Positions 4,860 through 34,336 of a stretch of 39,941 bases of DNA are shown here, piece after piece. A program made the translations under genes and the position numbers. How positions within the stretch are numbered: position 1 is the first letter of the stretch; every line of letters starts with the position of its first letter. The notes under the pieces were generated by a model. The model saw only the letters and a list, made by a program, of their open reading frames with translations. It searched no databases and was not told where the DNA came from. Source of the DNA: Lachnospiraceae bacterium (lineage in GTDB: Bacteria > Bacillota > Clostridia > Lachnospirales > Lachnospiraceae); NCBI GenBank assembly GCA_017520425.1, contig JAFXFO010000013.1, positions 1 through 39,941 on the forward strand, written 5' to 3'.

Positions 4860-4888
4860 AATACGCCTCGCGGGAAATGTTTTCCCTA

Positions 4889-4915
4889 TATCATATGCAA
4901 GGAATTGCCTTAGGT
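4889..4915 (-). promoter_or_regulatory. Candidate sigma-K-type sporulation promoter
   Basis: The minus strand shows AC (4914-4915), a 16-bp spacer and CATATGATA (4889-4897), matching the AC-N16/17-CATAnnnTA consensus of mother-cell sigma K in Bacillus. The match has few informative bases and may be chance, but its place 30 bp before the amidase start codon is right. Confidence 0.35.
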
Positions 4916-4916
4916 G

Positions 4917-5213: not shown

Positions 5214-5300
5214 GTGAGTCACCTCCTTTTTTATTTTATTATTCTTCAGATTTCGCAATAATATGAAACAATAAATTGGGATATTCTTATGTGGTTAAAT

Positions 5301-5329
5301 TTGCTATTTTTTAGAATTTATCGTATAAT
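5301..5329 (+). promoter_or_regulatory. Promoter of the 5377 gene
   Basis: TTGCTA (5301-5306) and TATAAT (5324-5329) with a 17-bp spacer, about 48 bp before the start codon. Confidence 0.7.
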
Positions 5330-5376
5330 CAAAAAGTAGATTTGCATTTGTGCAAAAGAAAGCGGAGGGTAAAAGA

Positions 5377-5778
5377 ATGAACGGTATGCAGGAGGTTTAC
5401 GAATTTTTAAAGAAGACAGGGACTTATTATCTGGCTACGGTAGAAGAGGATCAACCCAGAGTAAGACCCTTTGGAACCATTGATTTATTTGAGGATAAAT
5501 TGTATATTCAGACCGGTAAGGTAAAGGAAGTATCCAAGCAGATTCAGAAGAATGGAAAAGTAGAGATTTGTGCCTTTGATGGTGGTAAGTGGCTTCGTGT
5601 GGCGGCTACCTTAGTTCGGGATGACAGAATGGAAGCAAAGGAGCATATGCTGCAGGCATATCCTCATCTTGGTGCAATGTATGATCCTAAGGATGACAAT
5701 ACCGAGGTGCTGTATCTGAAGGATGCGACAGCAACCTTTTCTTCTTTCGCAGAAGCACCGAAAACTGTAACATTCTAA
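5377..5778 (+). CDS. Pyridoxamine 5'-phosphate oxidase-family flavin-binding protein
   Basis: The ATG chosen is preceded by GCGGAGGG; an upstream in-frame GTG is not. The 133-residue protein fits the split-barrel FMN-binding fold: MQEVYEFLKKTGTYYLATVEEDQPRVRPFGT at the N-terminus (strands 1-2, the usual A-T-x-x-x-x-P-x-x-R-P-x-G/F-x pattern), LYIQTGKVKEVSKQIQKN in the middle and a GGKWLRVAATLV strand. Family members bind FMN or F420 and reduce small molecules; the substrate is unknown. It is likely a cytoplasmic homodimer. An HD-domain gene follows after 17 bp and is probably co-transcribed, ending in a shared terminator. Confidence 0.85.
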   Translation: MNGMQEVYEFLKKTGTYYLATVEEDQPRVRPFGTIDLFEDKLYIQTGKVKEVSKQIQKNGKVEICAFDGGKWLRVAATLVRDDRMEAKEHMLQAYPHLGAMYDPKDDNTEVLYLKDATATFSSFAEAPKTVTF

Positions 5779-5795
5779 GAAAGAGGTAGAAAGCC

Positions 5796-6365
5796 ATGTT
5801 ACCAACCAGAGAAGAAGCGGAAAAACTGGTAATCGATGCGGAACAGTGTAATCCGGGGCCATGGGGAGACCACAGCAGGGTGGCCGCTCTTTGTGCAGAG
5901 AAAATTGCTGCACTTTGCGAGGATATGGATGCAGAAAAGGCTTACATATTGGGCTTGCTTCATGATATTGGCAGGAGGTTTGGTGTAAAGCACCTGGGAC
6001 ATGTGTATGACGGCTACAAATATATGACAGATTTAGGATATGATGAGGTGGCAAGGATCTGCCTGACTCATTCCTTTAGTATCCCGGACATCAGCGTATA
6101 TATCGGCAATTTCGATGTGTCAGAGGAAGGGTTAGAAGTCATCAAAAAAGGATTGACCGGTATGGTTTATGATGAGTATGATAAGCTGATACAGCTTTGT
6201 GATTGTCTGGCAAGTGCCGGGGGAGTGGTAGATATGGCAGAACGCATGGAGGATGTGCGTCGTCGTTACGGAAGCTATCCGCAGGAGAAGTGGGATGCCA
6301 ATATGGCTTTGCTTAAATACTTTGGCGACAAGGTAGGAAGGGATATTTATCAGGTAGTTGAGTGA
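5796..6365 (+). CDS. HD-domain phosphohydrolase
   Basis: The 189-residue protein carries the HD metal-binding set: His26 (WGDHS), the HD dyad His56-Asp57 in GLLHDIGRR, His92 (LTHSF) and Asp136 (LIQLCDCLAS). Such proteins are metal-dependent phosphohydrolases acting on nucleotides or phosphoesters in the cytoplasm. The compact size and GWP-like GPWGDHS start resemble the stand-alone HDIG proteins of Clostridia of unknown substrate. It is the second gene of a two-gene unit and is followed by a good terminator. Confidence 0.85.
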   Translation: MLPTREEAEKLVIDAEQCNPGPWGDHSRVAALCAEKIAALCEDMDAEKAYILGLLHDIGRRFGVKHLGHVYDGYKYMTDLGYDEVARICLTHSFSIPDISVYIGNFDVSEEGLEVIKKGLTGMVYDEYDKLIQLCDCLASAGGVVDMAERMEDVRRRYGSYPQEKWDANMALLKYFGDKVGRDIYQVVE

Positions 6366-6381
6366 TTCGAATCATGTAAAG

Positions 6382-6415
6382 AAAGGTCCTTCGGTTAAAA
6401 TCCGAGGGACCTTTT
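6382..6415 (+). terminator. Intrinsic terminator after the HD gene
   Basis: Stem AAAGGTCC-T-TCGG with CCGA-GGGACCTTTT and a T-run directly after. Confidence 0.85.
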
Positions 6416-6504
6416 AAATAATAGCAAAACAGGAAAGGTTTTTCGAAAAAGAATTGTTATCATAAGCATGTAGCTACGTGAAAACAAAGAAAGGTGGTGT
6501 GAGC

Positions 6505-7800
6505 GTGTACGTTAGGTTGATGCAGGAGAGCCTGGATTATATTGAGGACAATATTAAGTGTGAAATTACGGCAGAGGAGCTTAGTGACCGGGCCGGTTTT
6601 TCCTTATTTCATTATTATCGGCTGTTTCATACAGCAGTAGGAATGCCGGTGATGCAGTATATTTTGAGGCGAAGATTATTGAATGCCATATATGAAATCA
6701 GTCAGGGAGAAAAGATGATTGAAGTGGCGCTTGCCTATGGCTTTGATACCCATGCAGGTTTCTACAAAGCCTTTGTCAGAGAGCTGGGATGTACACCCGC
6801 GCAGTATTTGAAAAAGGGTAAGGTGAGGAAGCCTTACCGGATTGAACTTTTGAAGGAGGAACATATTATGATAACAAAAAAGAGAGTGGAAGGTTTATTA
6901 GGATATTGGGGCCTGGAAGGAGAGAAGGTCACGGATATCTACTATGAAGGAACAGGAAACAGAAATGAGTCTGCATACTATATTGGTGAGGAGTATGTAT
7001 TAAAATTTACAGCCAACTTAGGTAAATTGAAAAGTCATATCGCCATATCCAAAGCCTTGGAAAATGTGGGATTGACTGCAGCGGTACCGGTGAAAACCAA
7101 AGATGGTAGAGAGTATGTGGCAGAAGATGACTTATATTATTGTCTGACCAAACGACTTAACGGGGGCCAGCTTAAGGTGGGTGACATTTATGAAGAAGAT
7201 TATGCGGATAAAGCACGATTGGTCGGTGAGATTTTAGGACAGCTGAGTATGGCACTGGCTAAGGTGGACGCCGTGCTGGAAGAACCGGATTTATACGGAA
7301 GTGTAGTAAACTATGCCATCCCTAAGGTGAAGGCAGAGCTGAATGTGCCGGAAAGCATCTTTGCAGGTTATGAGAAGGAATTTGCTAAGCTGTATCCCGT
7401 GTTGACTAAACAAGTCATCCACAGAGACCCCAATCCCGGCAATTTGATTCTGGCAGAGGAAGGTTGGGGAGTAATTGACTTTGAACTAAGTGAGAAGAAT
7501 GTAAGAATCTTCGATCCCTGCTATGCAGCTACGGCCATCCTCTCGGAAACCTATGAAGCCGGTAATGAAGAAAAGCTTCAGAAGTGGCTTACTATTTTCC
7601 AAAATATCCTTTGCGGATATGATGAAGTGGTAAAGCTGTCAGAGGCGGAGAAGAAGGCCATTCCCTACGTGGTGCTTTCCAATCAGTTGTTGGCACTTGC
7701 CTGGTTTGAAGGGCAGGAGAAGTTTAAGGAATTGTATGAAACCAACAAGCTGATGACTGAGTGGCTGGCAAGCGTGTGGGATGAGCTGCGCTTGCAATAA
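6505..7800 (+). CDS. AraC-type HTH fused to an aminoglycoside phosphotransferase-fold (APH) domain
   Basis: The GTG start is chosen because AAGGTGG lies seven bases upstream and the protein then begins as AraC/XylS regulators do (VYVRLMQESLDYIEDN). Residues 1-105 (431-aa numbering) are a two-helix-turn-helix AraC domain, including LSDRAGFSLFHYYRLF and IEVALAYGFDTHAGFYKAF. Residues about 122-431 are an APH/choline-kinase fold: a small lobe with YVLKFTAN, then the catalytic HRDPNPGN at 306-313 and the metal-binding strand VIDFE at 324-327. In AraC proteins of the Rob/SoxS class the partner domain usually binds effectors; a kinase-like partner is rare. It may sense or phosphorylate a small amine or sugar. 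An in-frame ATG with its own strong ribosome binding site lies at the domain boundary. Confidence 0.8.
   Translation: MYVRLMQESLDYIEDNIKCEITAEELSDRAGFSLFHYYRLFHTAVGMPVMQYILRRRLLNAIYEISQGEKMIEVALAYGFDTHAGFYKAFVRELGCTPAQYLKKGKVRKPYRIELLKEEHIMITKKRVEGLLGYWGLEGEKVTDIYYEGTGNRNESAYYIGEEYVLKFTANLGKLKSHIAISKALENVGLTAAVPVKTKDGREYVAEDDLYYCLTKRLNGGQLKVGDIYEEDYADKARLVGEILGQLSMALAKVDAVLEEPDLYGSVVNYAIPKVKAELNVPESIFAGYEKEFAKLYPVLTKQVIHRDPNPGNLILAEEGWGVIDFELSEKNVRIFDPCYAATAILSETYEAGNEEKLQKWLTIFQNILCGYDEVVKLSEAEKKAIPYVVLSNQLLALAWFEGQEKFKELYETNKLMTEWLASVWDELRLQ
6853..6870 (+). promoter_or_regulatory. Internal ribosome binding site and in-frame ATG
   Basis: AAGGAGGA (6853-6860) sits seven bases before ATG (6868-6870), in frame with the AraC/APH gene and exactly at the junction of the two domains. 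Translation from here would give the kinase-like domain alone (about 310 residues). Confidence 0.65.
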
Positions 7801-7826
7801 AACATTAAGAGAAGTAAAGAATTATT

Positions 7827-7858
7827 GCCTCCGGGGAGCCGAAAGACACTCCGGGGGC
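7827..7858 (+). terminator. Possible terminator stem
   Basis: GCCTCCGG pairs with CCGGGGGC (one G-T pair) around a 16-base loop. The tail TAATTGTAT is poor in T, so termination would be weak. Confidence 0.35.
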
Positions 7859-7908
7859 TAATTGTATAAAGAGCCGGTATAAATCATGATGCAGAAATCA
7901 TATTTCTG

Positions 7909-7917
7909 TGGTATAAT
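7909..7917 (+). promoter_or_regulatory. Extended -10 promoter
   Basis: TGGTATAAT is a perfect extended -10 element. There is no clear -35, as is usual for extended -10 promoters. Its predicted start point near 7924 rules out the upstream TTG at 7921 as translation start of the next gene. Confidence 0.65.
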
Positions 7918-7965
7918 CTTTTGAAGACATGTATCTACAATTATCAAAAAGAAGAGGAATCCGAC

Positions 7966-8625
7966 ATGGGAAAAGAAGATCATAAATTAAGCAAAGCTGA
8001 ATTACGCAGGAAAGCTGTTTTCGAAGTGGTAAAGGCCGGTTTGGAGGAAGAAGGGTATCAAACAAAGGAGTTGACCATGAGTACCCTTGCGGCCAATGTG
8101 CTGGCTATCGTAGCAGCGTTGCCCCCCATAGTGATATTGATAGGAGTCTTTCGTATGCTGAATCCGCAGGCAAAGGGCCTCTCCGGAGAAATGTCGGACT
8201 TGCTTCTGTTTTTGGTGGCGTTTATGATATTGGTAGTAGTACACGAGCTGATACATGGTATTACCTGGGGACTTTGTGCCAAAAGCGGCTTTAAGTCCAT
8301 AGAGTTTGGCGTGATTTGGGAGTATGTGACACCTTATTGCACATGCAGTGAACCTTTGAAAAAAGGTCAGATGGTATTTGGGGCGTTGATGCCCACTATA
8401 CTTCTGGGAGTCATCCCGGGGATTATAGCCTGTATTATCGGTTCTACGGATTTGGTGTATATGGCGGGAGCCATGATGTTAGGCGGTGGAGCGGATATCA
8501 TGATTACAGGAAAGATATTACGCTACAAAAGTGGTAAAGGTGCCCTTTATCACGATCACCCCTACAAGGTAGGCACTATAGTATTTGAGAAAACGAGGAA
8601 TGATGAGGATGAAAAACGCAGTTAA
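7966..8625 (+). CDS. DUF3267-type membrane zincin metalloprotease
   Basis: The ATG start has AGAGGA upstream and lies beyond the predicted transcription start. The 219-residue protein has a first hydrophobic span about 43-64 and a second about 79-92 that runs into HELIH at 93-97, the zinc-binding HExxH of putative membrane zincins. Two more hydrophobic stretches follow (LMPTILLGVIPGIIACII and LVYMAGAMMLGGGADIMI). Proteins of this family are predicted intramembrane or membrane-bound metallopeptidases with unknown targets. The next gene starts inside its 3' end, so the two are translationally coupled. Confidence 0.8.
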   Translation: MGKEDHKLSKAELRRKAVFEVVKAGLEEEGYQTKELTMSTLAANVLAIVAALPPIVILIGVFRMLNPQAKGLSGEMSDLLLFLVAFMILVVVHELIHGITWGLCAKSGFKSIEFGVIWEYVTPYCTCSEPLKKGQMVFGALMPTILLGVIPGIIACIIGSTDLVYMAGAMMLGGGADIMITGKILRYKSGKGALYHDHPYKVGTIVFEKTRNDEDEKRS

Positions 8626-9103
8626 CAGAAACTTCATACTGGTAATTATACTTGCACTGGGGCTGTTGTTGGTACCTTTGGTGGTGGGAATCAGTGTGAA
8701 GGGGATAGAAAAGGATGCACAGGAGATAGAAGAAAAACTGGAAATCGTGGTGGCGGAAGGTGAAGGTTATGAACTGACGGACAGTTACAGTAAAGAGGTG
8801 ACAGCCTACGCTAAGATGATTTTCTGGGTGATTCTGATTGTGGTTGGCGGTTGTGCTGCACTTCTATTCCTGACAGCTTTTGCAGCTTGGCTGGTGTATC
8901 GTAATAATCCTCAGAAAGTAAAGTCGTACCGGGTGATTATGACCATCAATTATTTGTTACAGGCGATAGTGATTTATGTGATGGTGGATATGTTGTTTGA
9001 TGAATTCAGTGTAGGTGTATTGCTTCTGACCCTTTTGGTGGCAGCAGGTTTGGTATATAGTGCTTTGTACACCTATAGCAAAAGAATTTGTACAAATAAT
9101 TAA
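8609..9103 (+). CDS. Small four-span membrane protein, unknown function
   Basis: I do not recognise the family. The 164-residue protein has hydrophobic segments at about residues 8-28, 68-95, 105-128 and 133-154, with a short charged region rich in Glu/Lys between the first two (KGIEKDAQEIEEKLEIVVAE). It overlaps the zincin gene by 17 bases. The start is uncertain: ATGs at 8600, 8603 and 8609 are in frame, and GAGGA at 8595-8599 best fits 8609 or 8603. Coupling to the membrane zincin suggests a partner or substrate, which is inference only. Confidence 0.7.
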   Translation: MKNAVNRNFILVIILALGLLLVPLVVGISVKGIEKDAQEIEEKLEIVVAEGEGYELTDSYSKEVTAYAKMIFWVILIVVGGCAALLFLTAFAAWLVYRNNPQKVKSYRVIMTINYLLQAIVIYVMVDMLFDEFSVGVLLLTLLVAAGLVYSALYTYSKRICTNN

Positions 9104-9183
9104 ACGGTAACAACTTGGAAATATCTTACTGATATAGTAAAGAGGATACATAAGATAAGTGACGGAAATGATGAGGGATATAT

Positions 9184-9834
9184 ATGGCTCATATTTTGAT
9201 TGTGGAAGACGAAGAAGCAATTAACCGATTAATCAAGCAAAATCTGCGATTGGCAGGGCATGAATGCACACAGGTATTTGACGGCTTAGAGGCAAAGAAG
9301 GTATTGGAAGAGTTGGGTACCTTTGATTTGATTATCATGGATGTGATGTTGCCCCATATCGACGGCTTTACGCTGATGCAATATGTGAAAGGCATACCGG
9401 TGATTTTTCTTACGGCTAAGAGTCAGCTGGAGGACAAGATAACCGGACTGACTTCCGGAGCCTGGGATTATCTCACCAAGCCCTTTGAGATGCTGGAATT
9501 GATAGCCCGTATCAATCTGGTGCTTCAGAAGACGCAGAAGGAAAGTAAGGGCATTTGGCTGAATGATGTGTATGTGAATTTGGAGGCCAGAACCGTATCC
9601 CGGGGCGAGGAAGAAATCGAGCTGGCAAAACAGGAATTTGATCTGCTGGAAATCCTGATTCGCAATCGTAACATTGCCTTATCCAGAGAAAAGCTTTTGG
9701 ATTTAGCATGGGGATATGATTATATGGGAGACACCAGAACGGTAGATGTACATATTACAAAGCTGAGAAAGAAACTGAATTTGGAACAGTATATTAAGAC
9801 TGTATACAAGACAGGATATCGTTTGGAGATTTAG
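9184..9834 (+). CDS. OmpR/PhoB-family response regulator
   Basis: Residues 1-115 form a receiver domain with the acidic pocket at EDE (8-10), the phosphoacceptor Asp53 in LIIMDVMLP, Thr78 in IFLTAK and Lys99 in TKPFE. Residues about 125-216 are a winged-helix DNA-binding domain ending in TVDVHITKLRKKL and TVYKTGYRLE. The receiver has SGAWDYLTKP where GADDY is usual, a tolerated change. The ATG is preceded by GATGAGGG. The gene is followed after 18 bp by its cognate kinase and then an anchored PepSY-like protein, so these three genes form one signalling operon. Confidence 0.93.
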   Translation: MAHILIVEDEEAINRLIKQNLRLAGHECTQVFDGLEAKKVLEELGTFDLIIMDVMLPHIDGFTLMQYVKGIPVIFLTAKSQLEDKITGLTSGAWDYLTKPFEMLELIARINLVLQKTQKESKGIWLNDVYVNLEARTVSRGEEEIELAKQEFDLLEILIRNRNIALSREKLLDLAWGYDYMGDTRTVDVHITKLRKKLNLEQYIKTVYKTGYRLEI

Positions 9835-9852
9835 GAAACAGGGGAATAACGG

Positions 9853-11208
9853 ATGAAGGTTTGGCAGAAGGTATATCTGGCCACATTGGCAGTTTTTTTG
9901 TTGATGCTGAATGTGGGACTGATATTAGGCTCCAATTATATATTTGAACATAATGTTTCCGTAGAGCGTCAGCAATGCGAAAGAGAGTGTTATTTCCTGC
10001 AGCAGAATCTGGAACACGACTTTTCCTTTTTGGAAGCCAACGGTCGTATGCAGATTGGGGTAGTACAGAGAGTGGTGGACAACTATCACAATTATTATCA
10101 GAGCCAGGATATTTTCATTGAGCTGAGAGAGGCAGTGGCAGATAAGAGTAATACCCGTTCTATGGTTATCCGCGGCGGTAAGCAGATTTTTATTCAGGTG
10201 GAACGTACCCTTGCACAACCTTACGGGGACTATTCCGTATTTTATCAAAAAGAGCTGGTGGATTTTGAGCAGACCTGGGCGAAGCTGCAATCTACCTTTG
10301 TTCTGATAAGCGTCAGCCTGTCCCTGTTACTTTGTGTTCTGTTGTTTTTCATGATGCAGAGGATCTTCAAACCTTTGGAGCGTTTGAATCACTCAGTGGC
10401 AGAGATTTCCAGAGGGAATTATGAGCAGAACCTGAGTTACAAGGGGGAGGATGAGATAGCAGAGCTGGCAGGTAATATTGATACCATGGCAGGTACCATA
10501 CGTGAGCAGATTCAGAAGCTGGAGGAGGAGAATCAAAAGAAGCAGCAATTAATGGACAATCTGGCTCATGAATTGCGTACTCCTTTGACCTCCATTTACG
10601 GCTATGCTCAGCTGTTGCAGGTGGGCCGCGTCTCTGAGGAAGAGACCTATGAAGGTCTGGAATACATTATGAAGGAAAGTAAGCGACTGAACAAAATGAG
10701 TGAGGAAATGCTGTCCATGCGTTTGTTGGAAAGAAGTACGGTTGCACCCATAAAAGTGAATATAAATACGGTGGCAGAGCATGTACGCCGCATTCTGTCA
10801 GATGTTTTGGAAAAGAAAAAGGTGAAGTTGGTAGAAACCTTTGAAGTGACGGAATGTATGGGAGATGAAGAGGGATTAATTATCGTATTCCGAAATCTTT
10901 TGGAAAATGCCATTCGTGCCAGTAAGGAAGGCGACAGGGTAGAGTGGTTGCTGGAACGAAAGGAAAACGGATATTTGTTTCAGGTGAAGGACTATGGAAT
11001 CGGTATGGAGCAGGCTGAACTGGAGAAGGTAATGGATGCTTTCTACCGTGTGGATAAGGGGCGTTCCCGTAATGAAGGCGGTGCCGGTCTTGGCTTGTCC
11101 ATAGTGGATACCCTTGTAAAGAAATGGAACGGAAGGCTTTGGATAGAGTCAGAAAAGAACAAAGGAACTATTGTTTATGTGGAATTGCCGATTCCGCCAC
11201 AGGAGTAA
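9853..11208 (+). CDS. Sensor histidine kinase
   Basis: The 451-residue kinase has transmembrane segments near 7-29 and 147-168, enclosing an extracellular sensor of about 115 residues that has no recognisable fold. A HAMP segment (170-221) and a coiled coil lead to the HisKA H-box LAHELRTPLTS with phosphoacceptor His239. The ATPase core shows the N-box NLLENAIRAS, G1 VKDYGIGM and G2 GAGLGLSIV. It is the expected partner of the adjacent OmpR-type regulator. The sensory input is unknown; the next gene encodes an anchored extracellular protein that could act as co-sensor. Confidence 0.93.
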   Translation: MKVWQKVYLATLAVFLLMLNVGLILGSNYIFEHNVSVERQQCERECYFLQQNLEHDFSFLEANGRMQIGVVQRVVDNYHNYYQSQDIFIELREAVADKSNTRSMVIRGGKQIFIQVERTLAQPYGDYSVFYQKELVDFEQTWAKLQSTFVLISVSLSLLLCVLLFFMMQRIFKPLERLNHSVAEISRGNYEQNLSYKGEDEIAELAGNIDTMAGTIREQIQKLEEENQKKQQLMDNLAHELRTPLTSIYGYAQLLQVGRVSEEETYEGLEYIMKESKRLNKMSEEMLSMRLLERSTVAPIKVNINTVAEHVRRILSDVLEKKKVKLVETFEVTECMGDEEGLIIVFRNLLENAIRASKEGDRVEWLLERKENGYLFQVKDYGIGMEQAELEKVMDAFYRVDKGRSRNEGGAGLGLSIVDTLVKKWNGRLWIESEKNKGTIVYVELPIPPQE

Positions 11209-11254
11209 GGAGAGACTGTGACAATGCAGAAACACAAAGGAAGGGGAATGTGGC

Positions 11255-12514
11255 ATGAGAGAAAAAATTGAAACATTGCTTTTGGCATTCAGCCTTTGTG
11301 TGGTTAGTATCATTGTATTACTGGGAGGCATGAATCTGAGTGCCATGAAAAGTAACCGGAATGAGGAAGAATTTTATGAAGAGCAGTCTCAATCAGCATC
11401 TTCAGAGGATGTAATTGATACGGTTATCAATGAGTTTTCCGAGGATGCGCTGCGTGCAGAGTTTTCCGGAGTGGTTATCACTACCTGGGATGAATATTAC
11501 CGGATGAGTGGCATAGAGGTGTCAAAGGAAGAGGAAAGAGGGGTCTATGGTACCCTGAATGATGAAAACTGTTCCATGCAATGGGGCGGACTTCTGGCAT
11601 TAAAGGAATTGAGCTATATTGAAGAGATGGATACGGAGGGTATGTACCTGATGATGGTGCTGTCCGATGCAGGCTCTTCCCAGGCTTTGGATATCTGGAG
11701 AGGTTATTTATGCAACTATTTAATCGGGCAGGAACCCACGGACGGAGTGAAGAGGGAGTATTATCTGCAGGTCAATGCTTATACCGGTGAGGTGCTTCGT
11801 ATTGAAAAGCGTGGTGCAGAAGGCAGACTTAGTACCCTGTTTGAAAACAGCAATAAGCTGGAGCTTACGGAAAAGGATTTAGAAATTGACTATTCTGCAG
11901 TTCCCATTATATCGGTGGCGGATTATTGGGATATTAATAACCGTGTGCCCGGTGAAGAAGAAACTTACGAAAACGGTGTGGATGGTTACCTTTCCATGAA
12001 GGAAGCGGGCAATATTGTGTTGAAGGAGATACACCGTCTGTTTGATGAGGATATGGTAGGAATGAAGCTGGTTATGAGCTTTACCGACGGCAGATGGAGC
12101 GGCTGGCTTTTGAATGAATACAGTGCAGATGATGAAAGGTATAAGAGCTATACCTTTCGAATGGATGCCCGCAGCGGCAAGATTTGGTGGTTGACCGGCG
12201 GAAAACAATCTGTAAAGTATTCCGGAAAGACGACCTTCACAGATGAACAGATTATTGAAAATGCCCGAAGCATTATTAAGAAATATCATTTGGTCAACGT
12301 AAGTCAGCTGAATTGGAATGAAGTTTATGTATACAATGCGGCTAAGGACAAGCGCAATCCCATTGAGGAGCGATTGGAAAGAGAGGAAGGTCGCATCACC
12401 AATTATGTGGAGTTTTGTTCTGATGACGGAGAGTGGGTGCAGGTATCCATGGATTGGGAAACCGGAGAGTTGTGGCAGATTATTTATAAGAACTATTCCA
12501 AGTGGTACGAATAG
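11255..12514 (+). CDS. Membrane-anchored extracellular protein with PepSY-like strands
   Basis: The 419-residue protein starts with a signal-anchor (about 8-30, LLLAFSLCVVSIIVLLGGM) without a lipobox, followed by an acidic extracellular part. Three places end in the beta pattern typical of PepSY/YycH-like modules: VNAYTGEVLRIEK (about 170-182), MDARSGKIWWLTG and MDWETGELWQI at the C-terminus. I read it as tandem degenerate PepSY-like units. Accessory proteins of this layout encoded after a kinase often modulate it (as YycHI do for WalK); that role is inference. AAGGAAGGGG precedes the ATG. Confidence 0.6.
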   Translation: MREKIETLLLAFSLCVVSIIVLLGGMNLSAMKSNRNEEEFYEEQSQSASSEDVIDTVINEFSEDALRAEFSGVVITTWDEYYRMSGIEVSKEEERGVYGTLNDENCSMQWGGLLALKELSYIEEMDTEGMYLMMVLSDAGSSQALDIWRGYLCNYLIGQEPTDGVKREYYLQVNAYTGEVLRIEKRGAEGRLSTLFENSNKLELTEKDLEIDYSAVPIISVADYWDINNRVPGEEETYENGVDGYLSMKEAGNIVLKEIHRLFDEDMVGMKLVMSFTDGRWSGWLLNEYSADDERYKSYTFRMDARSGKIWWLTGGKQSVKYSGKTTFTDEQIIENARSIIKKYHLVNVSQLNWNEVYVYNAAKDKRNPIEERLEREEGRITNYVEFCSDDGEWVQVSMDWETGELWQIIYKNYSKWYE

Positions 12515-12524
12515 TGACAAAGAT

Positions 12525-12553
12525 TTGACGAAAAAGGATAAATATGTTATATT
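12525..12553 (+). promoter_or_regulatory. Promoter of the TPR/binding-protein gene
   Basis: TTGACG (12525-12530), 17-bp spacer, TATATT (12548-12553). The start point is expected near 12560, inside the left arm of the following terminator, so new transcripts would not form that hairpin. Confidence 0.7.
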
Positions 12554-12557
12554 TTAG

Positions 12558-12586
12558 CGGATGCTTCAGGCATCCGTTATTTTTTT
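12558..12586 (+). terminator. Terminator of the two-component operon
   Basis: CGGATGC (12558-12564), loop TTCAG, GCATCCG (12570-12576) and TTATTTTTTT. The ribosome binding site AAGGAGGG of the next gene follows directly on the T-run. Confidence 0.85.
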
Positions 12587-12600
12587 AAGGAGGGAAAACA

Positions 12601-14550
12601 ATGGAGAATCAAAAGAAAGCATCCGGTAAAAAATGGATTGTTGTTCTGTGTATTGTGCTGGCGCTTGCATTAATCGGCGGTGGTGCTTTCCTGGCATACA
12701 AATTCATTTTTAACAATCCGGAGAAAAAGTATGAGAAGGCCATGAGCAGTGCGGCGGATTTCATGGATGAGGAAGAGTATAAAGAGGCTATCGAATACTT
12801 TAAGGAAGCATTGGAATACGAGGAAGACGATGAGGATGCCCTGGAAGGAATTTCAGAGGCATACAAGAAGCTGGGTGACAGCTATCTTGCAAAAGAGGAT
12901 TATGAAAAAGCATATTCCAATTATAAGAAGGCATTCAAGGATGTAGAGAATAAGGAAGCACAGGAAGCAGCGCTTAATCTTTCCTATGAGCAGGCGAAGA
13001 AAGCCTATGAAGAATATGATTATGCTGCCTTTGAAGAGTGGGCCAAGAAGCACGATGAGCTGGCTGATGAGATGGATAAGGATGACTTCATTACAGCATA
13101 TATGTATGCGTCCTTGGATCCCGAAGTGAACCAACCTGTGATTGAGGAACCTGAATGGGAGGAGCCTGTGGTAGAGGAACCCGAATGGGAGGAGCCTGAG
13201 TGGGAGGAACCTGAGTGGGATGAGCCCGAAGTAATAGTACCGGAAGTGGTTGGTCCAACCAACGATCCCAATGTTCACATAATAAACGTATGGTCATTTA
13301 CAGAAGAGCTACCCAGGATAGTTCATAAATTTGTAGAAACCCATCCTGATTTTCCGTATCAAATCAATACTACCATTATCCCAACTAATGATGGCTTCTA
13401 TCAGCCGGCGTTGGACGCAGCATTGGAGGCCGGAGGAGCGGAAGCACCTGATATTTATTGTGTTGAGTCTGTATTTGCATATAAGTATACTAAGGGTGAC
13501 GCCAGTGGTTTTGCTGCTACCTATGAAGAGTTAGGTATTGATGTGGACACTAAAATCGGGGAGGCAGATATTGCAAGTTATATGGTAGAAATGGGAACAC
13601 GCCCTGCAGATGATCAAGTGGTAGGTCTTGGGTATTGGGCAACAGGAGGAGCTTTTATTTATCGACGTTCCATTGCAATTGATACCTGGGGAACCGATGA
13701 CCCTTCAGTAGTACAGGAAAAAATTGGTGGTGGTACCGGAAGCTGGGATCAATTCTTTGTGGCCGCTGAGGATTTGAAAGCAAAGGGCTATGCGATTATT
13801 TCCGGAGACGGTGATATTTGGCATCCCATAGAAAATAGTGCAGAGAACGGATGGATTGTAAACGGTAAGCTGCATATTGACCCCAAGAGAGAAGCCTTCC
13901 TGGATATTGCGAAGATCTTAAAGGACAATAATTATCACAACAATACACAGGATTGGTCAGAAGCCTGGTTGGCAGATATGAAGGGCCAAGGAGAGAAGGA
14001 AATGCTTGGTTTCTTTGGACCTGCATGGCTGATTAATTACACCATGAAATGGAACTGTGGTGGAACCACATATGGTGAAGGAACTTATGGTGACTGGGCT
14101 GTTTGTGAGTCTCCTGTAGGATTTTATTGGGGCGGTGACTGGATTCTGGCAAATAAGGATTCCAAGGTGAAGGCAGCTGTTGGAGAAATCATCGAATGGA
14201 TTACCTTGGATTATTCAAGAGATGGTCTTCAGTATGCATGGGCTAATGGTACCATAGACTGGGATTACGATCCTTCAACCATGGAGAACAAAGATACTGT
14301 TCCATCCAATGCCGTATTGAGGATGTCAGATGGAGGAATGGATTTCTTGGGCGGACAAAATATGTATGACATATATGTTTGGGCAAACGCATTTGCGACT
14401 GCTAAAAATGTTACACAATATGATGAAACCATTAACAGTTGTTATCGTGATGCGGTTCGTCAGTATGTGGAAGGCTACTTTACTCGTGATGAGGCATTGG
14501 AAAATTTTAAAGAAAATGTAAATTACAAACTGGGAATTGAAGCAGAATAA
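12601..14550 (+). CDS. Membrane-anchored TPR protein fused to an ABC-type sugar-binding domain
   Basis: The 649-residue protein has four parts. Residues 12-35 are an N-terminal transmembrane anchor without a lipobox. Residues 41-165 are tetratricopeptide-like helices (EEYKEAIEYFKEALEYEEDDEDAL, then KEDYEKAYSNYKKAF). Residues 178-212 are an acidic Pro/Glu/Trp repeat linker (EPEWEEP units). Residues 219-649 are a family 1 solute-binding protein that aligns without major gaps to the lipoprotein encoded at 32924, sharing blocks such as DGDIWH, GFFGPAWLINY, GDWAVCESPVGF and DGLQYAWANGT. The binding domain has a small insertion around KWNCGGTTYGEG, with an extra Cys. It would face outside the cell. 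No permease is adjacent. It has its own promoter and terminator next to a two-component operon. I infer a ligand-sensing or scaffold role rather than transport. Confidence 0.85.
   Translation: MENQKKASGKKWIVVLCIVLALALIGGGAFLAYKFIFNNPEKKYEKAMSSAADFMDEEEYKEAIEYFKEALEYEEDDEDALEGISEAYKKLGDSYLAKEDYEKAYSNYKKAFKDVENKEAQEAALNLSYEQAKKAYEEYDYAAFEEWAKKHDELADEMDKDDFITAYMYASLDPEVNQPVIEEPEWEEPVVEEPEWEEPEWEEPEWDEPEVIVPEVVGPTNDPNVHIINVWSFTEELPRIVHKFVETHPDFPYQINTTIIPTNDGFYQPALDAALEAGGAEAPDIYCVESVFAYKYTKGDASGFAATYEELGIDVDTKIGEADIASYMVEMGTRPADDQVVGLGYWATGGAFIYRRSIAIDTWGTDDPSVVQEKIGGGTGSWDQFFVAAEDLKAKGYAIISGDGDIWHPIENSAENGWIVNGKLHIDPKREAFLDIAKILKDNNYHNNTQDWSEAWLADMKGQGEKEMLGFFGPAWLINYTMKWNCGGTTYGEGTYGDWAVCESPVGFYWGGDWILANKDSKVKAAVGEIIEWITLDYSRDGLQYAWANGTIDWDYDPSTMENKDTVPSNAVLRMSDGGMDFLGGQNMYDIYVWANAFATAKNVTQYDETINSCYRDAVRQYVEGYFTRDEALENFKENVNYKLGIEAE
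13138..13230 (+). repeat. Tandem repeat encoding EPEWEEP linker units
   Basis: Imperfect 12- to 24-base repeats of the type GA(A/G)CCTGA(A/G)TGGGAGGA encode the Pro/Glu/Trp linker between the TPR and binding domains. Long minus-strand frames over it are by-products of the repeat. Confidence 0.75.
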
Positions 14551-14564
14551 AGAATGAAATGTTA

Positions 14565-14596
14565 AGAGGCAGATGCTTGGGCATCTGCCTCTTTTT
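14565..14596 (+). terminator. Intrinsic terminator
   Basis: Perfect 12-bp stem AGAGGCAGATGC / GCATCTGCCTCT with loop TTGG and a T-run. Confidence 0.9.
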
Positions 14597-14687
14597 AATA
14601 TAAAAAAATAATTCATAACATCCGTTTGTATATTTTTGCTTCATTTGCATTACCCTATGGAAAGAAGCAAAAAAGCGAGGTTTGATT

Positions 14688-16091
14688 ATGAAAAATATAA
14701 ATCAGCAAAAAACAGAAAGACCTTTCGGTATGCGGGATAAGCTGGGCTACATGTTTGGTGACTTTGGTAATGACTTTACCTTTGTGTTGTCATCCAGCTT
14801 TTTACTCAAATTTTATACGGATGTCATGGGGGTATCGGCGGGGATAGTTGGTATCGCGATGATGCTCTCCAGATTTGTTGACGCCTTTACGGATGTTGCG
14901 ATGGGACGTATCTGTGATAAGAGCAGAGTGACACCCAATGGTAAGTTTAAGCCCTGGATTTTAAGAATGTGCGGACCTGTAGCCATAGCCTCTTTTTTGA
15001 TTTATCAAAGCAGTTTGGCGGATATGTCCATGCCATTTAAGATTGCTTACTTATTTGTTACCTATATTTTGTGGGGTTCCATTTTTTATACCTCTATCAA
15101 TATTCCCTATGGCTCTATGGCATCGGCTATATCCGCGGAGCCGGGAGACCGGCAGTCATTGTCCACCTATCGCTCCATGGGAGCTACTTTGGCTGGCATG
15201 TTTATCGGAGCGGGTGTACCCTTGTTGGCTTATGATAAAATAGACGGCAATGCGGTATTAAACGGTAGCAGATTTACTCTGATAGCGGGAATATTCTCCA
15301 TTCTTGCAGTGGTCTGTTATTTACTTTGTTATGTCCTTACCACAGAGCGTGTGATGCCCCAAAGGTCGGATGAGGTGGCAAAAAATAACAGTGTTCGTTT
15401 GATGTTCCAAAATGCCATAAAGAATAGGGCACTAATATCCATTATTGCGGCTTCTATTGTAATGCTGCTGGCGCAGCTGACCATGCAGTCCATGGCGAAT
15501 TATGTATTTCCAAACTATTATGGCAGTCCGGAAGCGCAGATTGTCTCCACTTTTATGATGCTTTTCGGTATGGTAGGAGCGGCAGCGGTGGCAAAACCAT
15601 TGGCCGGTAAATTTGGTAAAGCGGAGATTGCAGTGGTATCCAATCTGTTGGCAGTGGTAGTCAGCATTCTGTTGTTTTTCCTGCGCCCGGAAAACGTATG
15701 GGTGTATGTGGTGATACAGGCTGCCAGCTGGTTTGGGCTGGGGGTATTCACCATGGTATCCTGGGCACTGATTACGGATGTCATAGATTATTCGGAGCTA
15801 AAAAATGGTGTCCGCGAGGACGGTTCGGTTTATGCCTTATATTCCTTTGCCAGAAAGCTGGGACAGGCTGCGGCAGCGGGAGTAACCGGATTTTTGCTGG
15901 ATTTTATCGGGTACTCTGCGACGACGGCCTTTGATGCAGATGTGGTGAAGGGAATCTATGATATTTCCACTCTGGTACCGGCACTGGGCTTTGGACTGTT
16001 AGCAGCCATCCTTTGGTTCTGGTATCCTCTGCATAAAAAAGAAGTGGATGCGAATGTAGCTGCATTGAAAGAAAAGCATGAAAAGGAGTAA
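14688..16091 (+). CDS. GPH-family sugar:cation symporter
   Basis: The start is an ATG seven bases after GCGAGG; the TTG two codons upstream is less likely. The 467-residue protein has about 12 hydrophobic spans and the glycoside-pentoside-hexuronide signatures: GYMFGDFGNDFTF near the N-terminus, the DAFTDVAMGRICDKSR loop after span 2, GKFKPWI, and the late-loop WALITDVIDYSELKNGVREDGSVYA. Relatives such as MelB and LacS-like carriers import glycosides with H+ or Na+. Its stop is followed after four bases by the start of a GH2 beta-galactosidase, so the substrate is probably a beta-galactoside. Confidence 0.92.
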   Translation: MKNINQQKTERPFGMRDKLGYMFGDFGNDFTFVLSSSFLLKFYTDVMGVSAGIVGIAMMLSRFVDAFTDVAMGRICDKSRVTPNGKFKPWILRMCGPVAIASFLIYQSSLADMSMPFKIAYLFVTYILWGSIFYTSINIPYGSMASAISAEPGDRQSLSTYRSMGATLAGMFIGAGVPLLAYDKIDGNAVLNGSRFTLIAGIFSILAVVCYLLCYVLTTERVMPQRSDEVAKNNSVRLMFQNAIKNRALISIIAASIVMLLAQLTMQSMANYVFPNYYGSPEAQIVSTFMMLFGMVGAAAVAKPLAGKFGKAEIAVVSNLLAVVVSILLFFLRPENVWVYVVIQAASWFGLGVFTMVSWALITDVIDYSELKNGVREDGSVYALYSFARKLGQAAAAGVTGFLLDFIGYSATTAFDADVVKGIYDISTLVPALGFGLLAAILWFWYPLHKKEVDANVAALKEKHEKE

Positions 16092-16095
16092 GCGG

Positions 16096-18324
16096 ATGAG
16101 AAGAATACTAAATTTTAATAATAATTGGCTCTTTAGCAAGAATGCAAATAAGGTGCCGGAAAAGATGCCGGAGGATTGGGAGAAGGTCAGACTTCCCCAT
16201 ACTTGGAATCATACGGACGGCCAGGATGGTGGCGGAGACTACTACCGAGGCACCTGTTATTATGTAAAGGAATTTGAGAAGAAGGACTTGCCGGAGGGTG
16301 CTGAGTATTTCTTAGAAATCAATGGTGCCAATTCTTCTGCGGAAGTATACCTGAATGGTGTAAAGCTCATCTATCACCACGGAGGGTATTCCACGTTCAG
16401 AGTGTGCCTGACAGATAACTTACAGGATAAGAATCTTCTGGTAATCTGTGTGGATAATAGTGAGAATACCAAAGTGTACCCGCAAATGGCAGATTTCACC
16501 TTTTATGGTGGCTTGTATCGTGATGTAAATATAATTGCGGTGGAAAAGAGTCATTTTGACTTGGAATATTATGGAGGTCCCGGCATCATGGTGACTCCCC
16601 GTTTGACCGGAGATGATGCGGAGGTGGAAATCCGTGTGTTTGTGTCCGGCTTGGAGGAAGGTCAGGAACTGCATTATACCATATTGAATCAAGAGGGAGA
16701 AGCGGTAGAGGAATGGAGCAGCAAGGACACTTCTGTGCAGATGAACATTCCTACAGTGCACCGCTGGCAGGGCAGAAGGGATCCTTATTTATATACTGCG
16801 GAAGTAAAACTGATGGAGGGCGAAAAGGAACTGGATAAGGTGACCACCCGTTTTGGTTGCAGAAGCTTTGAAATCCATCCTGAGAAGGGCTTTTTATTGA
16901 ATGGTAAGAAGTATCCCTTGCGAGGCGTGTCCAGGCATCAGGACCGATGGGGTGTGGGTAATGCCTTAAGCAAGGCGCATCACAGGGAGGATATGGAGCT
17001 GATTTGCGAGGTGGGGGCCAATACCATACGTCTTGCTCACTATCAGCATGACCAGTATTTTTATGACCTTTGTGATGAAAAGGGTATGGTGGTATGGGCG
17101 GAGATTCCCTATATTTCTAAGCATCTGCCTGAAGGCAGGGACAATACCATCAGCCAGATGAAGGAGTTGATTACTCAGAATTACAACCATCCGTCTATTG
17201 TGGTATGGGGACTTTCTAATGAAATCACCATCGCAGGCTCTGACGAGGATTTGTTGGAGAATCACAGGATATTGAATGATTTGGCTCATGAGATGGACCC
17301 TACCAGACTTACCACCATAGCCTGCGTGTCCATGTGTGATATCAATGATCCTTATATACAAATTCCGGATGTGCTGGCCTACAATCACTATTTCGGCTGG
17401 TATGGTGGAGACACATCCATGAATGGTCCCTGGTTTGATAAATTCCATGAGGTCCATCCGGACATTCCCATTGGATGTAGTGAGTACGGCTGCGAAGCCC
17501 TGAACTGGCATACTTCCGACCCGGCTCAGGGGGATTATACGGAAGAGTATCAGGCATATTACCATGAAGAGCTGATTAAGCAGTTCTTTACCAGAGACTA
17601 TTTGTGGGCCACTTATGTGTGGAATATGTTTGATTTTGGTGCAGATGCCCGTAATGAGGGGGGCGAAAACGGTCAGAACCACAAGGGACTGGTGACCTTT
17701 GACAGAAAATACAAAAAGGATTCCTTCTATGCCTATAAAGCATGGCTTTCGGACCAGCCCTTCGTGCATATTTGCGGAAAGAGGTATGTAAACCGTGTGG
17801 AGGATGTGACAAAGGTGACGGTCTACTCCAATCTGCCGGAGGTGGAGCTTTATGTGAATGGGGAAAGCTTTGAAAAGCAACGTAGCGAAGAACATTTCTT
17901 TTACTTTCATGTACCGAATAAAGGAAAGACCATTCTGCGGGCAGTGGCAGGAGAGTGTCAGGACAGCAGTGTGATTCAGAAGGTGGATGTGTTTGATGAA
18001 AGCTATCGTTTAAAGGAGAAAGGTGCTATTCTCAACTGGTTTGATATCACCGCACCGGAAGGTTATTTCTCCTTAAATGATACCATGGGGGCCATCATGA
18101 AGAACGAACAGGGCCGCAAAGTACTGGCAGGTCTGATGGCCGGAATGCAGGCTCAGATGAGCGGCGGCAAAGCTATGGGCTTTGAAATGAACGACGGTAT
18201 GATGAAAATGATGGAGGGCTTCACCATGGTACGAATGGCCAACCTGATGGGTACCGCAGGCGTAAAAATGACTAAGGAGCAATTACTGGAAATCAATAAA
18301 CAGCTGAACTTAATTCGCAAATAG
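16096..18324 (+). CDS. GH2 family beta-galactosidase
   Basis: The start chosen follows AAAGGAG and gives MRRILNFNNNW, a typical GH2 opening. The 742-residue protein has the GH2 sugar-binding domain (PHTWN at 34-38), the immunoglobulin-like domain, and a TIM barrel with RGVSRHQD (276-283), IRLAHYQHD, acid/base Glu376 in WGLSNEI and nucleophile Glu463 in CSEYGCE. No signal peptide is seen, so it cleaves imported beta-galactosides in the cytoplasm. After the usual C-terminal domain there is an unusual tail of about 75 residues from FSLNDTMGAIMKNEQG to the end, very rich in Met and Gly, of unknown role. It is co-transcribed with the upstream GPH symporter, whose coding region ends four bases before. 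Confidence 0.92.
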   Translation: MRRILNFNNNWLFSKNANKVPEKMPEDWEKVRLPHTWNHTDGQDGGGDYYRGTCYYVKEFEKKDLPEGAEYFLEINGANSSAEVYLNGVKLIYHHGGYSTFRVCLTDNLQDKNLLVICVDNSENTKVYPQMADFTFYGGLYRDVNIIAVEKSHFDLEYYGGPGIMVTPRLTGDDAEVEIRVFVSGLEEGQELHYTILNQEGEAVEEWSSKDTSVQMNIPTVHRWQGRRDPYLYTAEVKLMEGEKELDKVTTRFGCRSFEIHPEKGFLLNGKKYPLRGVSRHQDRWGVGNALSKAHHREDMELICEVGANTIRLAHYQHDQYFYDLCDEKGMVVWAEIPYISKHLPEGRDNTISQMKELITQNYNHPSIVVWGLSNEITIAGSDEDLLENHRILNDLAHEMDPTRLTTIACVSMCDINDPYIQIPDVLAYNHYFGWYGGDTSMNGPWFDKFHEVHPDIPIGCSEYGCEALNWHTSDPAQGDYTEEYQAYYHEELIKQFFTRDYLWATYVWNMFDFGADARNEGGENGQNHKGLVTFDRKYKKDSFYAYKAWLSDQPFVHICGKRYVNRVEDVTKVTVYSNLPEVELYVNGESFEKQRSEEHFFYFHVPNKGKTILRAVAGECQDSSVIQKVDVFDESYRLKEKGAILNWFDITAPEGYFSLNDTMGAIMKNEQGRKVLAGLMAGMQAQMSGGKAMGFEMNDGMMKMMEGFTMVRMANLMGTAGVKMTKEQLLEINKQLNLIRK

Positions 18325-26711: not shown

Positions 26712-26800
26712 TTCTAATAAATTATGGGGTGAAAAGTGAGTATACTGACAATATAAAAAAGTGAAGTGCGATGTGGGACACTTCCGAAAGGAGCTTACGT

Positions 26801-32923: not shown

Positions 32924-34336
32924 ATGAAAAAGTTAATCGCAACTTCTTTGTGTGCAGTATTAGCATTAGGATGCTTAACCGCATGTGGAGAAAAGAAGGA
33001 AGCTGCTGGCGATGCAGCTGACAAGGGTGGAGTTCAGGCAGAACAGAAGGTAGTTGAAGCTACTAACGACCCTAACGTAAAAACTATTAATGTATGGGCA
33101 TTTACTGATGAAGTACCCAAGATGATCGACAAGTATGTTGAATTACATCCTGACTTCGGTTTCGAAATCAACACTACTATCATCGCTACTACCGACGGTG
33201 CTTATCAGCCTGCATTGGACGAAGCTTTAAAGGCTGGCGGCGCTGATGCTCCTGATATCTACTGTGCAGAAGCAGCTTTCATCTTAAAGTATGCTCAGGG
33301 TGATGCAGCATCTTATGCAGCAACCTACGGTGAGTTAGGTCTTGATGTAGCAGCTAAGATTAAGGAAGCTGACATCGCTTCTTACTCTGTTGAAATCGGT
33401 ACTCGTCCTAGCGACGGTCAGGTAGTTGCACTTGGTTACCAGGCAACTGGTGGTGCTTTCATCTACAACCGTTCAGTAGCTAAGGATACTTGGGGTTCTG
33501 ATGATCCTGCAAAGGTTAAGGAAGCAATCGGTGGTGGTACCGGTAACTGGGATCAGTTCTGGAAAGCAGCTGATGAATTGAAGGCTAAGGGCTATGCTAT
33601 CTGCTCTGGTGATGGAGATATCTGGCACGCAATCGAAAACAGCTCTACTTCTGGTTGGGTAGTTGATGGTAAGTTAACTATCGATCCTAAGAGAGAAGAG
33701 TTCTTAGACGTTTCTAAGAAGTTAATGGACAATGGTTATCATAACGATACTCAGGACTGGACAGATCCTTGGTATGCTGATATGAAGGGTGCTGGAGAAA
33801 AGAAGGTTCTTGGTTTCTTCGGTCCTGCATGGTTAATCAACTACGTTATGGCTGGTAACTCTGGCGATACTTATGGTGACTGGGCAGTTTGTGAATCACC
33901 TGTAGGTTTCTTCTGGGGTGGTACTTGGTTACTTGCTAACAAGGATTCTAAGGTTAAGAAGGCAGTTGGCGAAATCATCAACTGGATTACTCTTGACTGC
34001 ACCAAGGACGGTTTACAGTATGCATGGGCTAACGGTACCGTTGACTGGGATAACGATCCTGAAACTGCAACCGCTAAGGATACTGTAGCATCTGGTACTG
34101 TAATGAAGATGTCTGATGGTACTGTAGAATTCTTAGGTGGACAGAACATGTTCGACGTATTCGTTCCTGCTAACGCATTTGCAAATGGTAAGAACTTAAC
34201 TCAGTACGATGAAACTATCAACTCTACTTTCAGAGATGCAGTTCGTCAGTACACCGCTGGTAAGGTTACTCGTGATCAGGCTATTGCTGATTTCAAGACC
34301 AACGTAGCAGCTAAGGTTGACGTTGAAGTAGAATAA
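32924..34336 (+). CDS. ABC importer sugar-binding lipoprotein
   Basis: The 470-residue protein has a lipoprotein signal with lipobox LTAC at Cys21 and the fold of family 1 extracellular solute-binding proteins (INVWAFTDEVPKMIDKY at the N-terminal strand, GAFIYNRSVAKDTWG, GFFGPAWLINY, DGLQYAWANGT). AAGGAGGG precedes the ATG. Codon use is strikingly biased (GCT, GGT, AAC, TAC, AAG) compared with every neighbour, as expected for a very abundant protein. A strong hairpin terminator separates it from the two permease genes, so it can be made in excess. It is the paralogue of the binding domain at 12601. Neighbours point to cellobiose or longer beta-glucan oligosaccharides as ligand. Confidence 0.92.
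   Translation: MKKLIATSLCAVLALGCLTACGEKKEAAGDAADKGGVQAEQKVVEATNDPNVKTINVWAFTDEVPKMIDKYVELHPDFGFEINTTIIATTDGAYQPALDEALKAGGADAPDIYCAEAAFILKYAQGDAASYAATYGELGLDVAAKIKEADIASYSVEIGTRPSDGQVVALGYQATGGAFIYNRSVAKDTWGSDDPAKVKEAIGGGTGNWDQFWKAADELKAKGYAICSGDGDIWHAIENSSTSGWVVDGKLTIDPKREEFLDVSKKLMDNGYHNDTQDWTDPWYADMKGAGEKKVLGFFGPAWLINYVMAGNSGDTYGDWAVCESPVGFFWGGTWLLANKDSKVKKAVGEIINWITLDCTKDGLQYAWANGTVDWDNDPETATAKDTVASGTVMKMSDGTVEFLGGQNMFDVFVPANAFANGKNLTQYDETINSTFRDAVRQYTAGKVTRDQAIADFKTNVAAKVDVEVE

Follow-up and report, generated by a model that had tools for sequence, protein, structure and literature searches.

A sugar-binding domain on a membrane-anchored scaffold

We analysed a 39,941-nucleotide stretch of DNA from a Lachnospiraceae bacterium (assembly GCA_017520425.1, contig JAFXFO010000013.1, positions 1 to 39,941 of the forward strand), hereafter the window, and in it one gene that joins a hydrophobic helix, a tetratricopeptide repeat (TPR) part and an acidic linker to a CUT1-type sugar-binding domain, that is, an importer-type solute-binding protein (SBP) domain, which we call the head (Table 1). 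A first-pass annotation of the window had described this fusion and taken it for a duplicated binding domain moved onto a protein-interaction scaffold, possibly as a sugar sensor or a ligand-presenting protein; the observation itself is confirmed, and the interpretation is partly supported. The 649-aa open reading frame (ORF) is real. Over residues 215-649, it is identical to the importer lipoprotein encoded at 32924-34336 in 299 of 435 positions (69%), and the linker is encoded by a true tandem repeat (3.1 copies at a period of 30 nt, 13135-13226, with 83% matches) whose unit is 15 or 30 bases.

Both domain assignments were upheld, with qualifications. The TPR_12 match (residues 51-112) scores 28.1 bits against a Pfam cut-off of 30.1. 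For neither of the two SBP copies in the window did Pfam and NCBIfam give an SBP match at E <= 1e-3, so that they are identified as SBPs through the paralogue, CebE and other relatives; of 10 relatives scanned, 4 match SBP_bac_8. The cello-oligosaccharide-binding CebE (8bfy) is the sole solved relative found by sequence.

The hydrophobic segment spans residues 7-37 (19-residue hydropathy window) and follows a short, positively charged tail (MENQKKASGKK) without a zinc ribbon. The lipoprotein signal with its Cys, typical of importer SBPs, is missing: by inspection there is no lipobox, and the lone Cys17 lies inside the helix, for which reason we read the helix as an anchor. From the N-terminal charge pattern, the TPR part, linker and head are predicted to lie outside the membrane. 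The stalk part of the gene (12601-13200) has a third-position GC of 0.485, against 0.36 in the head part (13243-14547) and 0.369 in the paralogue, a contrast that fits different origins of stalk and head.

Table 1. Features of the fusion gene, its paralogue and its surroundings in the window
Feature	Position	Strand	Basis or remark
Fusion gene, 649 aa	12601..14550	+	ATG start, no internal stop
Putative membrane anchor, about residues 11-36	12631..12708	+	hydropathy, peak 2.87
TPR part, about residues 41-165	12721..13095	+	TPR_12 E = 2.4e-6, TPR_11 E = 2.7e-5, both under gathering scores
Acidic Pro/Glu/Trp repeat linker (EPEWEEP), residues 173-218	13117..13254	+	tandem repeat
CUT1-type sugar-binding domain (head), residues 219-649	13255..14547	+	paralogue 69%; 8bfy CebE E = 1.1e-7
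Residue 346, Trp; aligned to CebE D173	13636..13638	+	alignment with stand-alone relatives and CebE
Residue 513, Asp; aligned to CebE S334	14137..14139	+	alignment with stand-alone relatives and CebE
Paralogue: stand-alone binding lipoprotein of the importer	32924..34336	+	permease 160 bp downstream
Two CUT1-type permease genes	34496-35482, 35482-36321	+	NCBIfam MalF/UgpA-like and GlcU/UgpE-like, under equivalog cut-offs
OmpR-type response regulator, HisKA kinase (9853), PepSY-domain gene	9184..12514	+	domain matches; present in G385 without the fusion
PepSY-domain gene, between kinase and fusion	11255-12514	+	
GPH symporter and GH2 enzyme, downstream	14682..18324	+	domain matches; in G385 the symporter gene adjoins the PepSY gene
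Promoter-like site TTGACG-17-TATATT, TG before second hexamer	12525..12553	+	consensus scan, 10/12
Hairpin and T run: terminator-like end of PepSY gene, 5' leader of fusion	12555..12579	+	
Strong terminator-like hairpin after fusion gene	14564..14593	+	13 pairs, 7 G-C

Related fusions and the absence of adjacent permeases

We searched for the head in 397 genomes of the family, at least 134 of which gave matches at E <= 1e-20, and in 35 genomes of the genus of G495, which yielded further ones (G and L numbers denote genomes and loci of this survey). A copy was called fused if its ORF had at least 570 aa, and a permease was defined as a tblastn match to the two permeases of the window at E <= 1e-6. 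The counts cover 121 distinct SBPs with a head match at E <= 1e-10, 13 fused and 108 stand-alone, and leave out L131, L132, L135, L136 and the loci overlapping the window. The stand-alone copies are mainly the best-scoring hits among the matches listed, so the ratio of fused to stand-alone copies is not a frequency.

At least 12 long fusions other than the window gene were found (13 with it), and their heads are carried in several ways. A zinc ribbon, a transmembrane (TM) helix and TPRs precede the SBP in L168 and L185/L193, where the zinc ribbon and some TPR matches are weak, and in L169 a zinc ribbon (by eye) and a TM helix are followed by an acidic linker and the SBP. L177/L192 and L191/L197 encode a Ser/Thr kinase domain, a TM helix and the SBP in one chain (Pkinase E = 2.7e-34 and 1.2e-34), the genes lying at L192:6981-9677 and L197:5819-8692. 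The SBP follows a membrane part of at least two helices in L186, L188 (possibly cut by the contig end) and L190; L165 and L166 are lipoproteins with an extra domain, L167 is secreted with DUF5648 repeats, and L198 is secreted with the SBP followed by a weak Ig-like match. Because the fused label requires 8 changes on a tree of 86 heads, at least 6 of them forced by supported branches, the tree indicates that fusion of this head arose repeatedly, and this recurrence supports the idea that a duplicated binding domain was moved onto a membrane scaffold here.

None of the 13 fused copies but 105 of the 108 stand-alone copies have a related permease within 1 kb (Fisher p = 5.7e-15, a test that ignores kinship); the remaining three stand-alone copies, L129, L181 and L183, have only about 1.5 kb of flank. 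When kinship was taken into account with 6 independent pairs, on average 5.6 pairs differed in the same way and none in the opposite way (median p = 0.031, range 0.031-0.125). In 15 longer stretches around fused or similar genes, no permease homologue was found at E <= 1e-3. The window gene agrees with its class: as first reported, no permease stands beside it, the nearest homologue of the window's permeases being 19,946 bp away. Three long-frame candidates, in G077, G256 and G456, proved to be shorter ORFs (506, 517 and 485 aa, respectively) accompanied by permeases; G456, whose neighbours were read by eye, stands outside the counts.

The TM-TPR part has many weak relatives of its own: 46 ORFs in the surveyed loci match it at E up to 1e-3. 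Judged by eye, 16 of the 25 inspected start with paired Cys motifs resembling a zinc ribbon, and a variety of outer domains follow the TPRs. One zinc-ribbon-TM-TPR protein is encoded in the window's own genome (L135:8566-10869). On account of these relatives and their varied outer domains, the stalk of the fusion is assigned by sequence to a common modular pattern in Lachnospiraceae.

Changes in the binding pocket

The contacts of CebE with cellotriose are tabulated in Table 2 of PMC10714786, which also gives D173 as conserved across four sugar-binding proteins; 15 of these contacts fall within the part that aligns to the head. Residue 346 is Gln in 108 of 108 stand-alone relatives and Trp in the window fusion, and it is changed in 6 of the 13 fused copies, to W, E, N, T, A and L (Fisher p = 4.5e-7); on the tree these are six changes, all on fused lineages. 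At residue 513, 106 of the 108 stand-alone copies have Thr (the other two, a Ser and a gap) and the fusion has Asp; at residue 263, 64 of 64 close stand-alone relatives have Thr and the fusion has Asn. Among the 13 mapped contacts that are conserved in 90% of the 64 close stand-alone copies, the fusion keeps 9 and changes 4 (A261P, T263N, Q346W and T513D); among the 64 themselves, 56 change none, 7 change one, and 1, a truncated gene, changes two. The cello-oligosaccharide ligand that the first-pass annotation had in mind is made doubtful by Q346W and T513D.

The pocket is nevertheless far from erased. All 13 fused copies have retained Trp 452, 476 and 510 (CebE F282, W303 and W331), and the window fusion also keeps Glu 289 and Gly 512, so the loss of all ligand-contact residues, which the annotation had named as evidence against its own reading, did not occur. 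Of the 94 positions that are invariant in the 64 close stand-alone copies, the fusion keeps 84 and breaks 10; in a leave-one-out comparison the stand-alone copies break a median of 0, with a full-length maximum of 6 and 36 in the truncated L104. Up to residue 515, changes at conserved positions affect 4 of 12 mapped contacts vs. 12 of 130 other positions (one-sided p = 0.031), a mild enrichment (p = 0.055, 0.046 and 0.17 for windows of 1, 2 and 3). We read the pocket as retuned rather than dead.

In a further SBP lipoprotein, L201:1570-3321 (583 aa), the linker is a long Ser/Glu stretch, site 346, otherwise invariantly Gln in stand-alone copies, is Glu, and 8 kb of sequence contain no permease match; L201 and the stand-alone L202 and L203 (both with Gln and permeases) stand outside the counts.

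Age and constraint of the fusion gene

The head of the fusion differs from its paralogue by a synonymous divergence (ps) of 0.77, which is saturated, and a nonsynonymous divergence (pn) of 0.197, and from the copy in G385, a genome of the same genus, by ps = 0.75 and pn = 0.195; between the paralogue and the G385 copy the values are ps = 0.45 and pn = 0.152. Synonymous saturation bars an exact ps/pn ratio, and these comparisons indicate a head that is old and under constraint. As ps is saturated toward both the paralogue and the G385 copy and lower between those two, the fusion copy looks older than the split between the window's genome (G000) and G385, and a recent duplication of the lipoprotein gene at 32924 is doubtful. 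In a quick protein tree, the fusion head and the paralogue are joined at a support of only 86, with end branches of 0.44 and 0.24, respectively. Nine other copies of the head with 62-70% identity, among the matches listed in 138 genomes of the genus, are open frames of 454-478 codons. The absence of the fusion from G385 is compatible with loss there and with arrival here from elsewhere alike.

Gene neighbourhood and expression signals

The annotation placed the fusion next to a two-component system. It is near one and on the same strand; the PepSY gene (11255-12514), a hairpin and a promoter-like site lie between. That site is a consensus match which by itself is no evidence of function; together with the bracketing hairpins it suggests that the fusion gene is probably its own transcription unit. 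The window also encodes a GH94 phosphorylase. Of 33 other window proteins tested, 26 match contig C12 of G385, on both sides of the fusion gene, which makes a mis-joined contig unlikely; with both flanks syntenic and the head just 69% identical to its paralogue, we rejected an assembly artefact. In G385, a gene-free gap of about 120 bases separates the PepSY gene from the symporter gene, and a like hairpin stands behind the PepSY gene (by eye). The PepSY protein is present in 2 of 138 genomes of the genus, the window's own included. The kinase at 9853 has an ectodomain of about 118 residues (by inspection), and between the window's genome and G385 its TM1-ectodomain part (111/145 identical) is no less alike than the rest (201/306).

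Four side observations concern this neighbourhood. The leader of the fusion gene (12555-12640) can form the terminator-like hairpin or, as preferred by RNA folding, pair over a long stretch with the first codons so that the ribosome site and the start codon are buried (minimum free energy -21.6, z = -3.24), and a switch is possible. Eleven bases of the terminator arm in the PepSY-symporter gap of G385:C12 (ATAACATCCGT) recur right behind the fusion gene (window 14600-14650), which is suggestive only of the fusion gene having entered inside an old terminator. Between the fusion gene and the importer operon lies a gene for a methyl-accepting chemotaxis protein (26771-28273; MCPsignal 1.1e-28; 77% in G385). 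The ORF at 6478-7800 joins an AraC-type helix-turn-helix to an APH-fold kinase domain (HTH_18 1.5e-18, APH 1.9e-11) and has no match in the syntenic G385 contig.

Kinase genes near the fusions

Neighbours were surveyed by Pfam scans of 30 hand-picked ORFs from 10 loci, with L167, L196 and L201 outside the survey. On one strand of L193 (6480-12170), a hybrid kinase gene (HisKA, HATPase_c, receiver and Hpt) and a regulator gene are followed by the zinc-ribbon-TM-TPR-SBP gene, with 78 bp between the receiver protein gene and the fusion gene; L193 may be a clearer example than the window of a scaffold-borne SBP serving as a two-component sensor. In L169, a LytTR regulator gene and then a GHKL kinase gene precede the fusion on the same strand by about 530 bp. 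Two-component genes thus stand near 3 of the 13 fused genes (those of the window, where the PepSY gene intervenes, L193 and L169). Given 41 regulator domains in 2.9 Mb (G000), 59 in 3.3 Mb (G568) and 28 in 2.6 Mb (G189), the chance of a regulator within about 3 kb upstream on the same strand is by rough arithmetic about 2-3% per random gene, which 3 of 13 exceeds. The kinase of L169 has, by eye, one membrane helix and no outer domain, and that of L193 consists mostly of membrane helices; on these grounds an outside partner is plausible for both. The kinase-SBP gene of L192:2067-9677 (G559) comes after WXG100 (3.7e-8), PP2C (2.6e-17) and FHA/VWA (FHA 2.8e-21) genes, a set that resembles type VII secretion loci.

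Interpretation and alternatives

Binding domains of importers close on their sugar and thereby present a new surface to the permease. We propose that in the fusion such a domain has been freed from import and, with a retuned pocket, serves a membrane receptor or co-receptor as its ligand-binding head, a reading on which we would bet neither for nor against. The helix would anchor the protein, the TPRs outside would serve as a stalk or for docking, and the reach of the head would be extended by the acidic linker. The head would bind a soluble ligand, probably a saccharide, other than the cello-oligosaccharide expected for the paralogue, and either the TPR part or the head itself would relay the ligand-driven closure to a partner in the membrane, most likely a kinase. 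The observations behind this proposal are the architecture, the lack of an adjacent related permease, the pocket changes, the constraint, the recurrent fusions, and the relatives that are fused to kinases or adjacent to two-component genes; from these we infer the outside location, the retained sugar binding and the signalling. The partner of the fusion protein might be the kinase encoded at 9853, the PepSY protein or the chemotaxis receptor encoded at 26771. The sensing or presenting role suggested in the annotation gains from the two kinase-TM-SBP relatives and the placement of L193 and L169; against a tight tie to the neighbouring kinase stand the fusion gene's own expression signals, the gene order of G385 and the undiminished likeness of the kinase's TM1-ectodomain part between the two genomes.

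A number of findings count against this proposal. Pfam matched no kinase domain in the fusion protein, which contains no other known signalling domain either, and with a cytoplasmic tail of only about 11 residues it cannot signal alone. The contacts were mapped through a 34-bit alignment that covers only residues 53-331 of the 8bfy chain (chain number plus 28), the change A261P is ordinary, as Pro also occurs in 31 of 108 stand-alone copies, and Trp346 could block the pocket instead of retuning it. The tree-aware test at residue 346 is weak (2.5 of 6 pairs the same way, none opposite, median p = 0.5). The adjacency to two-component genes was noticed after the fact, and no kinase was found among the few neighbours scanned at L165, L166, L186/L194 and L198. 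The L168 fusion (4692-9596) adjoins an amino-acid-type ABC importer with its own SBP (SBP_bac_3, BPD_transp_1, ABC_tran), whose permease, 1.1 kb behind, falls outside our definition of a permease. G385 keeps the gene order of regulator, kinase, PepSY, symporter and GH2 without the fusion, so the two-component system exists there without it. The conservation check proposed in the annotation likewise turned out negative: no second fusion is among the matches listed in the 138 genus genomes (own included), and since the gene was seen in no other genome, conservation can show no partner for it.

The specific version in which the fusion completes the neighbouring two-component system as a third component, by activating the kinase at 9853, is contained in the probability given to the receptor or co-receptor proposal, and we consider it unlikely. 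The neighbouring kinase is a fair but unproven partner: it is encoded nearby on the same strand, the scaffold fusions of L193 and L169 follow two-component genes whose kinases could need an outside partner, and CuaD with CuaSR (see below) is a real precedent. However, the intervening PepSY gene, hairpin and promoter-like site separate the two genes, G385 shares the gene order without a fusion, the kinase has its own ectodomain, for which the PepSY protein is an alternative partner, and the systems of the window, L193 and L169 are of different types.

Also quite unlikely, in our view, is an accessory anchored binding protein of long reach that gathers sugar farther out in the wall and passes it in trans to the permeases at 34496 and 35482. 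The 69% identity to the importer's lipoprotein and the 84 of 94 invariant positions kept would suit this role, and a linker of 46 residues might let the head reach down; the 10 broken positions exceed what any full-length stand-alone copy shows (at most 6), and, as a group, the fused copies are placed apart from related permeases. We rate as equally improbable a role in surface capture or adhesion, in which the head holds a polysaccharide, wall glycan or protein without signalling. TM-TPR scaffolds of the family do bear many different outer domains, and other fused SBPs are secreted proteins or lipoproteins with Ig-like, LRR-like or DUF5648 parts, but the kinase fusions and the neighbouring two-component genes speak for signalling in the case of related heads, and the pocket tryptophans kept in all 13 fused copies suit the binding of a small ligand. 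That the gene is a stray, functionless chimera heading to decay, as its end branch, longer than the paralogue's, and its absence from other genus genomes among the matches listed might suggest, is very improbable in view of the open frame, the expression signals, the saturated synonymous but low amino-acid divergence and the retained tryptophans.

Extending the receptor or co-receptor proposal to the family, we tentatively suggest, with slightly more doubt than belief, that in Lachnospiraceae one group of SBPs has repeatedly been uncoupled from its transporter and put to new use as ligand-binding heads of membrane signalling systems, the freed pocket Gln changing as the heads came to read new ligands. 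The carriers of the reused heads would be TPR stalks and zinc-ribbon scaffolds beside two-component kinases, as well as, directly, Ser/Thr receptor kinases. If the suggestion is true, the inputs of the Ser/Thr kinases and of the many TM-TPR scaffold proteins of such bacteria become directly testable through the detached heads. The contrast between fused and stand-alone copies would then also provide a sequence rule (is there an adjacent permease, is there a Gln) that separates importers from receptors, both of which are probably annotated just as solute-binding proteins. The combination of parts, its recurrence and the changes at an invariant contact residue are new to us, the parts themselves being of known kinds; a narrow full-text search of open-licence literature brought up no paper that, judged by title and abstract opening, describes TPR- or kinase-SBP fusions.

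Comparison with known systems

Compared with CUT1-type SBPs, and with CebE of Streptomyces (8bfy) in particular, the head is homologous (E = 1.1e-7) and keeps the pocket Trp residues and several contacts, whereas the fusion has a membrane helix instead of a lipoprotein signal, adds TPRs and a linker, has no adjacent permease, and is changed at the equivalents of D173 and S334. With zinc-ribbon-TM-TPR proteins such as L135:8566-10869 it shares the order of TM helix, TPRs and C-terminal outer domain; unlike them, it has no zinc ribbon, and its outer domain is an SBP. The window fusion does not have the cytoplasmic kinase domain required of an SBP-headed Ser/Thr receptor kinase.

For the GlnH-GlnX-PknG pathway of Actinobacteria (PMC6069109, PMC8546545), it has been proposed that GlnH feeds the Ser/Thr kinase PknG (PMC6069109). 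The likeness is that an SBP is proposed to act on Ser/Thr kinase signalling and that a TPR domain takes part in the pathway. There, however, the components are separate proteins and the TPR belongs to the kinase, whereas in the window fusion TPR and SBP form one chain, both predicted outside, without a kinase.

A precedent for a two-component role is CuaD of the Ruminiclostridium cellulolyticum CuaDSR system, an orphan importer-type SBP that binds the ectodomain of a sensor kinase and whose pocket, in a model, does not resemble the one of the import SBP CuaA (PMC10384115). CuaD and the fusion are both importer-type SBPs without a permease of their own, encoded near two-component genes in a region serving cellobiose (in the window, GH94). 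CuaD is a separate lipoprotein whose gene shares an operon with those of its kinase and of a regulator of the YesN/AraC type; the head of the fusion instead sits on a TM-TPR part, apparently in its own transcription unit, near a pair of the OmpR/HisKA type. The CuaDSR trait of an SBP encoded in one operon with its kinase is therefore not found in the fusion of the window, and L193 would fit it better.

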